A program made the position numbers and the translations under genes. A stretch of 64,000 bases of DNA from an uncultured Clostridia bacterium. GTDB lineage: Bacteria; Bacillota; Clostridia; Oscillospirales; Acutalibacteraceae. The stretch covers positions 96,346 to 160,345 of the forward strand of contig CALWVN010000003.1 of the NCBI GenBank assembly GCA_944384995.1. Direction: 5' to 3'. Of this stretch, positions 24,976 through 27,662 are shown piece after piece. The notes beneath the pieces are model-generated. The model was not told where the DNA came from. It made no database searches and saw nothing but the letters and a program-made list of their open reading frames with translations. How positions within the stretch are numbered: the first letter of the stretch is position 1; every line of letters begins with the position of its first letter.

Positions 24976-26643
24976 TCAGATCTTCATCACAGCGCCGTCC
25001 TTGGCGGAGGAGACCATCTGCGCATAGCGCGCAAGCCAGCCGCTCGTGATGCGCGGCGGATGCGGCACATACGCTTTGCGGCGTTTTTCGAGCTCCTCGT
25101 CCGAAACGCGGACGTTGACTTTGGCATTCGGAATGTCGATCTCGATGATGTCGCCCTCTTCGATGAGGCCGATCTCGCCGCCGCAGGCAGCCTCCGGGCA
25201 GACATGCCCGATGGAAGCCCCGCGCGATGCGCCGGAAAAGCGGCCGTCGGTGATGAGTGCTACGGTCTTGTCAAGCTGCATGCCCGCAAGCGCCGAGGTG
25301 GGGTTGAGCATTTCGCGCATCCCGGGCCCGCCGACCGGGCCTTCATAGCGGATGACCACCACGTCGCCGTCATGGATCTCGCCGCCGTAAATCGAAGCGA
25401 TCGCTTCATCCTCGCTGTCGAACACACGTGCCGGACCTTCATGCACAAGCATTTCGGGCGCGACCGCACTGCGTTTCACAACACAGCCGTCTTTTGCGAT
25501 GTTGCCCCACAAAATCGCAAGCCCGCCCGTTTCGCTGTACGGGTTCGTGATGGGACGGATGGCGTTTTCGTCCTTGATATACGCGCCCTCGATGTTCTCG
25601 CCGACGGTCTTGCCCGTTACGGTCAGCAGGGAAAGGTCAAGAAGCCCTTTCTTCGCAAGCTCTGCCTGTACCGCCGGCACGCCGCCCGCATTGTTGAGGT
25701 CGTGCATATGCGTAGGTCCCGCAGGGGCAAGGTGGCAGAGGTTCGGCACCTTGGCGCTCATTTCGTTGAAGGTGTGCAGATCCATCGGGCAGCCTGCCTC
25801 TTTGGCAATGGCGAGCAGGTGCAGCACGGAGTTCGACGAGCACCCCAGCGCCATGTCGCACGCCAGCGCATTGCGAAGCGCCTTTTCGTTGATGATGTCA
25901 CGCGCCTTGATGTCATTTTCGACCAGGTGCATGATCGCCATGCCCGCCTTTTTGGCAAGCTGCACGCGCCCCGCATGCACGGCGGGGATCGTCCCGTTGC
26001 CCGGCAGCGCGATGCCTAAGGATTCGCACAGGCAGTTCATGCTGTTGGCGGTATACATGCCGGAGCACGAGCCGCAGCCCGGGCAGGTGTTGTTTTCAAA
26101 TTCGCAAAGCTTCGCGTCGTCGATCAGGTTCGCCTTACGCGCGCCGACGGCTTCAAACATTTTGGAAAGCGAGGTCTCCACGCCGTCCACAAGACCCGAC
26201 ATCATCGGCCCGCCGGAGCAAACGACGGTCGGCAGATTGATGCGCAAAGCGCCCAGCAGCATGCCGGGAACGATCTTGTCGCAGTTGGGGACGAGAACCA
26301 GCCCGTCAAAGCCGTGCGCGGTTGCCATGGTCTCCACGCTGTCCGCGATCAGCTCGCGCGAGGGCAGGGAATACTTCATGCCAATATGCCCCATGGCAAT
26401 GCCGTCGCATACGCCGATGGCGGGGACTTCGATCGGCGTGCCGCCCGCCATGCGCACGCCCGCCTTGACCGCCTCGGCGATCTTGTCAAGGTGGATATGC
26501 CCGGGAACGATCTCGCTGTGCGCGGAGATTACGCCGATAAGCGGACGTTCCAATTCCTCTTTTGTATAGCCCATCGCATAAAACAGGCTGCGGTTCGGCG
26601 CGCGTTCCACGCCCTCCAACACGTTTTTGCTGTGTAAATTCAT
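24976..26643 (-). CDS. ilvD: Dihydroxy-acid dehydratase
   Basis: 555-residue iron-sulfur dehydratase that makes the keto-acid precursors of valine, leucine and isoleucine. Family motifs: [13 protein letters not shown] with a cluster-ligand Cys, [19 protein letters not shown] with further ligands, and the C-terminal [15 protein letters not shown]. Length is normal. ATG 26643 lies after a strong AGGAGG; the in-frame sequence upstream to 26703 lies inside the operator and is not coding. It has a consensus promoter with paired GntR operators almost identical to those of ilvC. Confidence 0.95.
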
Positions 26644-26675
26644 AAAATGCCTCCTGTCCAACATCTCTGAAACAG

Positions 26676-26737
26676 TTGTATGACATATTCTAATAGTTGT
26701 CATACAACTATTATAGCAACAAAATCACAACTGTCAA
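26676..26737 (-). promoter_or_regulatory. ilvD promoter and paired GntR/FadR-type operator
   Basis: Minus strand: TTGACA (26737-26732), 16-nt spacer, TATAAT (26715-26710), then at once the half-sites TTGTATGACAA (26707-26697) and ATGTCATACAA (26686-26676), centres 21 bp apart. Both fit the FadR-family form TNGTNNNACNA, the second with one mismatch. Spacer length, promoter hexamers, operator type and 21-bp spacing are the same as upstream of ilvC. Confidence 0.75.
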
Positions 26738-26790
26738 TACCCTTTTACGCTTTGCCGGGGATACAAACGCCGGCGAAGCATTTTTAAGGT

Positions 26791-26819
26791 TTGCTTTGCT
26801 TTTTTTGCAAAAGTATAGT
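26791..26819 (+). promoter_or_regulatory. Predicted promoter of the GntR regulator
   Basis: TTGCTT (26791-26796), 17-nt spacer, TATAGT (26814-26819). No copy of the ilv operator is present here. Confidence 0.45.
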
Positions 26820-26856
26820 ATAGTGGAACAGGCAAATCTATGAATCGAGGCAGATT

Positions 26857-27558
26857 ATGCAAACAGAAAACCTTTCCCAGCGCACCGCCGAAACGCTGCG
26901 TGCGCAGATCTTGGAAGAAAAGAAATACCGTCCGGGCGAAAAGCTGCCGAATGAAAATGAGCTTGCCGAGTCGCTCGGCATCAGCCGCACGACGCTTCGC
27001 GAGGCGATCCGCACGCTCGCTTCCGAAGGGCTTTTGGAGGTGCGGCGCGGGCGCGGCACGTTCGTAGCGGGGGAGCTTGACCGCGTCGCGGCGGAGAGCG
27101 TCAATATGCAGGAGCTCGTCCGAATGCAGGTCACGCTGCGTGACCTTTACGAAGCGCGCATGATCTTTGAGCCGCAAGCCGCCGCGCTCGCCTGCAAGCG
27201 TGCAACAGACGAGGAGATCGAGCGCATTTTGGCGCTCGGTGCGGAATGCCAGCGCCAGCTTCAGATCGACCCGCGCGGTAAAAACCGCATCGCCTCGGAA
27301 AGCGCGTTCCACGGTGCGATCATCAAGGCGGCGCACAACGACTTTTTAAGCCAGTTCATGCCCACGCTCACGCAGACGATCGAACAGACCTTCGCGCTCA
27401 ACTACAATCTGGACGTCATCGCCGAGGACGCCTACAAAGATCATATTTTGATCATGGATTTCTTAAAAAAGCGCGACGCGCGCGGCGTTAAAAGCGCCGT
27501 GACGGTGCACCTGCACCACGCCGTGCAGCACGAGCAAATTTCTTTTGAAGAATTGTAA
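26857..27558 (+). CDS. GntR-family regulator, FadR/FCD subfamily, likely regulator of ilvC and ilvD
   Basis: 233 residues. N-terminal winged helix (~1-72) contains LAESLGISRTTLREAIRTLA and the wing VRRGRGTFV; the C-terminal all-helical FCD ligand-binding domain (~90-225) has candidate metal-binding residues in FHGAIIKAAHND, DHILIMDFLKKRDARG and VHLHH. The gene sits between the divergent ilvD and the co-directional ilvC, each with a pair of FadR-type operators overlapping the transcription start region, so repression of both is the simplest reading. The effector (a branched-chain amino or keto acid?) is inference. ATG follows GAGG. Confidence 0.88.
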   Translation: MQTENLSQRTAETLRAQILEEKKYRPGEKLPNENELAESLGISRTTLREAIRTLASEGLLEVRRGRGTFVAGELDRVAAESVNMQELVRMQVTLRDLYEARMIFEPQAAALACKRATDEEIERILALGAECQRQLQIDPRGKNRIASESAFHGAIIKAAHNDFLSQFMPTLTQTIEQTFALNYNLDVIAEDAYKDHILIMDFLKKRDARGVKSAVTVHLHHAVQHEQISFEEL

Positions 27559-27565
27559 AAAGGTA

Positions 27566-27629
27566 TTGACAGAACAGAATTTGCGGTTATAATAGTTGTA
27601 TGACAACAAATCAAACCTGTCATACAACT
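27566..27629 (+). promoter_or_regulatory. ilvC promoter and paired GntR/FadR-type operator
   Basis: TTGACA (27566-27571), 16-nt spacer, TATAAT (27588-27593), then TTGTATGACAA (27596-27606) and CTGTCATACAA (27617-27627), centres 21 bp apart. The arrangement is the same as on the minus strand before ilvD. Confidence 0.75.
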
Positions 27630-27662
27630 CAGCTAAGATACATATTTTAGGAGGTATTTCCC

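Follow-up and report, generated by a model that had tools for sequence, protein, structure and literature searches.

The DNA analysed here is a 64,000-nt window within the 1.89-Mb genome (G000) of an uncultured bacterium whose genus was taken as Ca. Fimenecus (Bacillota, Clostridia). It carries, side by side, the dihydroxy-acid dehydratase gene ilvD on the minus strand and, on the plus strand, a gene for a 233-amino-acid regulator and the ketol-acid reductoisomerase gene ilvC. We propose that the regulator, a GntR-type protein with an FCD domain, is a dedicated transcriptional repressor of ilvC, and in the window species also of ilvD, that would be released by a carboxylate of the pathway; we put the probability of this reading at roughly 0.83. 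The promoter-operator modules, their conservation and linkage to the regulator gene, and the protein's family are shown directly. Comparative genomics supports GntR control of ilv genes, and it is from sequence that we infer binding, repression, cooperativity and ligand. In Bacillota the control of branched-chain amino-acid synthesis is usually ascribed to CodY, T-boxes or attenuators. Control in gut Clostridia without CodY would be accounted for by a GntR-FCD regulator that is widespread and has a clear operator code. Such a regulator would also allow the expression of ilvC, and in some genera of ilvE and leuCD, to be predicted for uncultured species from their sequence, and it poses a testable ligand question.

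Promoter-operator modules of ilvC and ilvD

Direct reading of the region before ilvC (27663..28688, plus; NCBIfam NF004017, 543 bits, cut-off 336) gives, all on the plus strand, a -35 element TTGACA at 27566..27571 and, after a 16-bp spacer, a -10 element TATAAT at 27588..27593. Operator 1, TTGTATGACAA, follows at 27596..27606 (centre 27601) over the expected (unmapped) transcription start, and operator 2, CTGTCATACAA, at 27617..27627, its centre at 27622 being 21 bp downstream of the first. The minus-strand gene ilvD (24976..26643; NCBIfam TIGR00110, 752 bits, cut-off 618) is preceded on its own strand by TTGACA at 26732..26737 and, again 16 bp away, TATAAT at 26710..26715, both read directly, then by operator 1, TTGTATGACAA, at 26697..26707 (centre 26702), two bases after the -10, and operator 2, ATGTCATACAA, at 26676..26686 (centre 26681, 21 bp from 26702). 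Operator 1 begins two bases past the -10 in the ilvC promoter as well, and the second site of either pair has one mismatch to TTGTNNNACAA.

This reading confirms the original prediction of TTGACA-16-TATAAT promoters at ilvD and ilvC followed by paired FadR-type sites with centres 21 bp apart. The sites had been called half sites, which is wrong, since each 11-mer is a whole pseudo-palindromic FadR-type operator (TTGTNNNACAA); the spacing of exactly 21 bp holds for both window pairs and fails as a general rule, relatives having 20-23 bp. In sequence, the TTGT-NNN-ACAA sites fit the FadR-subfamily operator consensus TKGT-N3-ACMA as given in passages of PMC4494728, and each 11-mer should therefore hold one dimer.

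The window has two matches to the pair pattern with up to two mismatches, where 0.02 would be expected by chance, and none of 100 shuffles had two. Across the whole genome TTGTATGACA-N6..16-TGTCATACAA is found at the ilvC and ilvD places only, with no match of the reversed control. A looser pair (one mismatch, 21 bp) adds a single match in this genome, C7:17699, which looks like chance because its control also matches once. Isolated copies of TTGTATGACA lie at six other genome places, five of them inside long open frames and one (L012) seemingly intergenic and without a partner, compared with two places for the reversed 10-mer.

The regulator

The regulator gene (26857..27558, plus) lies between ilvD and ilvC and is co-directional with ilvC, which bears out what had been predicted. 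Its product has an N-terminal GntR winged helix-turn-helix domain starting at residue 7 (PF00392, 79.2 bits, cut-off 27) and a C-terminal FCD domain (PF07729, 75.8 bits, cut-off 24.3), and is a member of the FadR subfamily of the GntR family. A putative promoter, TTGCTT-17-TATAGT (26796..26824, plus), was recognised by eye, is similar in orthologues and is without an operator pair. The best NCBIfam matches of the protein are LldR (NF007741, 121.3 bits against a cut-off of 311) and PdhR (NF007001, 83.8 against 330), and among the best 25 of 31 matches to NCBIfam equivalogs scores are far below cut-off. The residues E148, H152, H196 and H218 are invariant across 16 aligned regulator orthologues and, where alignments reach, align with the acid-His-His-His set of solved FCD proteins, the acid being glutamate here and aspartate there. 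In FCD proteins this set binds metal, and the ligands of the FCD site are metal-bound carboxylates. Of five predicted structure models one reached a confidence score (pLDDT) of 83.6 and four lay at 49-68, so the fold search serves only to confirm the FCD-GntR class; titles among its results name an FCD protein that binds metal and a GntR repressor in complex with citrate.

Conservation within the genus

Within the genus, regulator and operators travel together. The sample comprised 39 genomes, 23 of which hold a full or split ilvC orthologue (matches down to E 1e-129); an additional partial ilvC on contig C99 of G013, a genome with 9% contamination, was set aside. The regulator was sought in G000-G035, where it is present in 17 of 36 genomes at 64-100% identity. 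A tblastn search of the ilvC locus in G059 showed it there too, at 81%. Promoter and pair stand directly before ilvC in all 18 regulator-bearing genomes; 15 of these pairs were found by a one-mismatch pattern and the others by reading (G014, with a spacing of 22 bp; G031 and G016, with TAATCATACAA as second site). By contrast, none of the five genomes with ilvC and no regulator (G001, G007, G018, G032 and G035) has a pair before ilvC.

The ilvD gene is paired in only 5 of the 22 genus genomes that hold it (G000 and G019 by pattern; G012, G025 and G059 by reading, with the degenerate second site ACATCATACAA), the other 17 upstream regions having no pair, and the core target is therefore ilvC. 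The prediction that the sites should be conserved before orthologous ilv genes accordingly held for ilvC (18/18 with the regulator, 0/5 without it, 44/49 in the wider set described below), and for ilvD only in part. No TTGTNNNACAA is present in 22 genus upstream stretches of ilvB (up to 260 bases each; 17 in regulator-bearing genomes). Across the genus the looser pair gave 13 strand-hits outside ilv genes, of which a single repeat in G014 accounts for four; with 11 strand-hits in the reversed control, the 13 were taken as chance.

Distribution beyond the genus

A collection of 84,980 species, each represented by a single genome, was scanned with the alignment of 16 regulator orthologues and yielded 73 regulator loci. 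Although these loci were found by the regulator alone, ilvC lies near it in 48, mostly adjacent and at most about 2.3 kb off; the other 25, without ilvC in the stretch, comprise short contigs, distant relatives and an ilvD-linked group. Together with the window, the 48 loci provide 49 gntR-linked ilvC promoters, in which a pair spaced 20-23 bp occurs in perfect form in 19, with one mismatch in 39 and with two in 44, compared with none for the reversed pattern and none in 20 rounds of dinucleotide shuffles. The spacing in the 44 pairs is 21 bp in 31, 22 bp in 6, 23 bp in 5 and 20 bp in 2. The 48 loci include 17 from genus genomes that also figure in the count above; of the 31 gntR-linked ilvC promoters beyond that genus sample, 26 have the pair. 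The hosts range from Lachnospiraceae to Erysipelotrichaceae and include Lachnospira, Eubacterium ruminantium, Floccifex porci and genomes labelled Anaerostipes and Faecalitalea.

An ilvC tree of 27 proteins (the window, 10 genus relatives and 16 of the 31 others) groups the regulator-linked Fimenecus ilvC among those of Lachnospiraceae and Erysipelotrichaceae, and a fully supported branch separates it from the ilvC of G007 and G035; 11 of the 24 inner branches are weak. A third Fimenecus lineage (G001, G018 and G032) branches elsewhere within the large group. Because of this placement, spread of a gntR-ilvC cassette between families is likely.

More distant relatives of the regulator have other neighbours. 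In loci L229-L233 (Blautia schinkii and Clostridium species among others) a relative lies just before ilvD, with shared AGACA- and ATACAAC-like promoter elements. In L237 (4001-5571) the gene immediately following a relative of 38-39% identity is panB; the enzyme it encodes uses 2-ketoisovalerate, and this placement gives a hint of the ligand class.

A putative wider target set in Lachnospira

The strict pair was sought in 36 relatives' genomes, one of which (L184) is a genus member, and was found in 16 of them at 24 places, with no match of the reversed control. To judge by pair sequence or annotation, these places are ilvC (15), cstA (3), gdhA (2), ilvA (2), ilvE (1) and pckA (1); the pairs away from ilvC are at gdhA, ilvA and cstA in Lachnospira G085 and G086, at cstA and pckA in G092 and at ilvE in G071. 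When two mismatches were allowed, three Lachnospira genomes stood out with 13, 10 and 9 matches against 5, 5 and 2 in the control. From these 32 matches, seven were examined in G085 and eight in G092, six in G086 were matched by sequence to those of G085 and 11 were left out. A match named L319, inside a long gene, was taken as chance.

Among the examined pairs ilvE, leuCD, ilvA, gdhA, cstA and ilvC recur in all three Lachnospira genomes, with trpD in one and pckA in one. NCBIfam or Pfam matches confirm the products in G085 as well as pckA (G092) and ilvE (G071), and the G086 and G092 copies were named from translations or pair sequences; CstA scores 500 bits in Pfam and 245 with the NCBIfam equivalog, below the cut-off of 1188. 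Between G085 and G092, at ilvC, ilvE, leuC, ilvA and gdhA, 14-16 of the 16 fixed pair positions agree, compared with 43-64 of 120 positions in the ungapped flanks and 3-7 in the 10-bp spacers. The cstA pair is useless as such a footprint because its flanks are still identical at 112 of 120 positions, and the cstA promoter is unclear. The Lachnospira orthologue thus appears to control a wider set consisting of ilvC, ilvE, leuCD, ilvA, gdhA, cstA and, in one genome, pckA; that these sites belong to this regulator is something we infer.

Proposed mechanism and alternative explanations

At ilvC, ilvD, leuC, ilvA and trpD the pair begins 2-12 bases downstream of the -10, over the expected start, a position that suits repression. 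Each TTGTNNNACAA would hold one dimer and, as 20-23 bp is about two helical turns, two dimers behind the -10 would sit on the same face of the DNA, where by covering the start they would, to judge from the layout, block initiation or escape of RNA polymerase. Cooperative binding of the two dimers is likely; double sites of constant spacing are argued to mean cooperative binding in passages of PMC4494728. The FCD domain would probably bind a small hydroxy- or keto-carboxylate of the pathway, upon which repression would be lifted.

As to the identity of this carboxylate, our tentative first choice is the IlvC substrates acetolactate and acetohydroxybutyrate, which would make the protein a functional analogue of E. 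coli IlvY from another protein family. The constancy of ilvC as a target and the omission of ilvB fit substrate induction, and the Lachnospira target set fits amino-acid or keto-acid sensing equally well. On the latter side, a CodY- or Lrp-like sensor of sufficiency, with valine, leucine, isoleucine or a branched-chain 2-keto acid as corepressor, would account for the resemblance of the Lachnospira targets (ilvC, ilvE, leuCD, ilvA and gdhA) to a CodY or Lrp regulon and would fit a genus in whose 39 genomes CodY was not found; we consider it rather unlikely, as the committed step, ilvB, is without TTGTNNNACAA in the 22 genus stretches and FCD regulators are usually released from DNA by their ligand. 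If the signal were instead pyruvate or some other carboxylate of central metabolism, the situation in PdhR and LldR, ilvC would be one outlet of a carbon/nitrogen overflow regulon. Pairs before cstA in three Lachnospira genomes and before pckA in one point that way, as do the best NCBIfam matches of the regulator (LldR at 121 bits and PdhR at 84, both below cut-off), but the common target is ilvC and the targets found include no pyruvate dehydrogenase or lactate gene, so that a central carboxylate is an unlikely ligand.

Two further alternatives concern the sites themselves. FadR-subfamily motifs are alike, so the site sequence alone does not name the protein, and the sites could be real and bound by another GntR-type protein, with the neighbouring gene a bystander. 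Co-occurrence in 18/18 against 0/5 genus genomes, and ilvC within about 2.3 kb in 48 of the 73 loci that the regulator-only scan returned, make this improbable. The inverted pair could also form an RNA hairpin in the 5' leader, acting as an attenuator or an element of mRNA stability and not as a DNA operator, given that the window's two sites are reverse complements close to the transcript start and that the L203 leader, when folding begins immediately ahead of the first operator, gives a structure more stable than those of its shuffles (z -3.78). The L217 leader, folded likewise, does not (z -1.23), and from the expected start in the window there is a stem of only 6 bp, with folds like those of shuffles (z -1.14 for ilvC, -0.05 for ilvD). 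Across the 44 pairs the TTGT/ACAA arms are kept while the triplet between them varies: the two sites have complementary triplets in 16 pairs, identical ones in 5 and neither in 23, and such variation of middle bases and site order without compensation speaks against a hairpin. The pairs of ilvE and pckA, moreover, precede the best promoter match, and 5S rRNA was the only family to reach its Rfam threshold in the window; we regard an RNA element as very improbable.

Several observations nevertheless weigh against the proposal of a dedicated repressor. The five regulator-free genomes of the genus represent only two lineages, so that its 23 ilvC-bearing genomes are not independent trials, and all 49 promoters of the wider set were found via the regulator, which places promoters lacking it outside the test. 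Five of the 49 (L193, L199, L210, L221 and L222, L210 being Anaerofustis stercorihominis) are without a pair recognised by the script; by eye they have one good and one degenerate site, or two degenerate ones. The distant ilvD-adjacent group L229-L233 (41-47% identity) has no clean TTGTNNNACAA pair. Autoregulation through the same operator finds no backing, since 17 gntR upstream regions of about 160 bases each have no pair at the gntR promoter (in G000, G019 and G012 part of the ilvD pair extends into the far end of the stretch). Apart from the three Lachnospira genomes, the two-mismatch search of 35 genomes was mostly no better than its control and too noisy to name targets. Since only sites with at most two mismatches were admitted, the agreement at fixed positions between G085 and G092 is in part a product of selection; the occurrence of pairs before the same genes in both genomes is not. 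Other GntR proteins of Lachnospira might use such sites as well. The ilvE pair of G071, G085 and G092 has its downstream end 5-7 bp before the -35, which is unlike promoter blocking and, as far as position can suggest, activator-like; the pair ends upstream of the best -35 match also at gdhA (by 107 bp) and pckA (by 25 bp).

A speculative extension of the repressor proposal takes in these upstream pairs. In gut Clostridia without CodY the FCD-GntR protein might be a master regulator of branched-chain amino-acid and linked carbon and nitrogen metabolism that senses a pathway intermediate, represses ilvC, ilvD, leuCD and ilvA, where the pair follows the -10, and perhaps activates ilvE and pckA, where it precedes the -35; the gntR-ilvC cassette would have spread between families with its operators, genes such as ilvD being drawn in by gaining a pair.

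Relation to known systems

The regulator shares domain order, a TNGT-N3-ACNA type of operator and the acid-His-His-His set with FadR-subfamily FCD regulators such as PdhR, DhdR, TM0439 and Corynebacterium glutamicum CGL2915 (2di3), which we take to be the lactate regulator LldR; it differs from them in its targets, which are genes of branched-chain amino-acid synthesis. CodY controls ilv and leu genes in many Bacillota, and the Lachnospira target list is similar in kind, but the protein studied here has no CodY domain and the CodY motif is different. Control by CodY itself was rejected for the genus, as CodY occurs in 0 of its 39 genomes (Bacillus subtilis and Lactococcus lactis were the positives among 14 control genomes). 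Control of ilvC and ilvD by a T-box was rejected likewise, there being no T-box in the window at the Rfam gathering score. T-boxes are present in all 39 genus genomes, with eight matches in G000, none of them inside the window; RNA-based and GntR-based control therefore coexist in one genome.

A parallel in arrangement is E. coli IlvY, described in passages of PMC6483228 as a dedicated LysR-family regulator encoded beside ilvC, with two tandem operators and with ilvC controlled apart from the other ilv genes; it is a substrate-induced activator of ilvC whose inducers are acetolactate and acetohydroxybutyrate (PMC6483228). The system studied here also has a regulator gene beside ilvC and two operators, and its ilvC would likewise be regulated separately from the rest of the ilv genes. 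It differs in that IlvY is a LysR-family activator while the present protein is a GntR-FCD regulator with sites behind the -10, for which induction by acetolactate is a hypothesis. E. coli NanR, according to passages of PMC8012715, is a GntR-type repressor whose dimers bind neighbouring sites cooperatively, using GGTATA direct repeats and a 32-residue N-terminal extension; the GntR domain of the present protein, in contrast, starts at residue 7 and its predicted operators are of the TTGT-NNN-ACAA form. Text searches of open-licence literature (most subscription papers, databases such as RegPrecise and the supplements of PMC4494728 lying outside their scope) brought up no recognised account of a GntR-FCD regulator of ilvC or of branched-chain synthesis, and in the main text of PMC4494728 neither 'ilv' nor 'branched-chain' occurs; the novelty of GntR-FCD regulation of ilvC is not certain.

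Other observations in the window

The layout of two operators behind a -10 is repeated at another promoter. At 17469-17500 a TATAAT element is followed directly by TTGACATGTCAA-TCA-TTGACATGTCAA, two palindromes 15 bp apart, before a MarR-family gene that begins at about 17523 on the plus strand (Pfam MarR, 47 bits) and is followed, by reading, by two ABC-transporter-like genes. On the minus strand, 21882-24121 encodes a DUF1538 protein (471 bits) and then a protein that has, close to the C-terminus, a P-II nitrogen-regulator domain (48 bits), a gene pair that suggests a membrane protein tied to P-II-like signalling.

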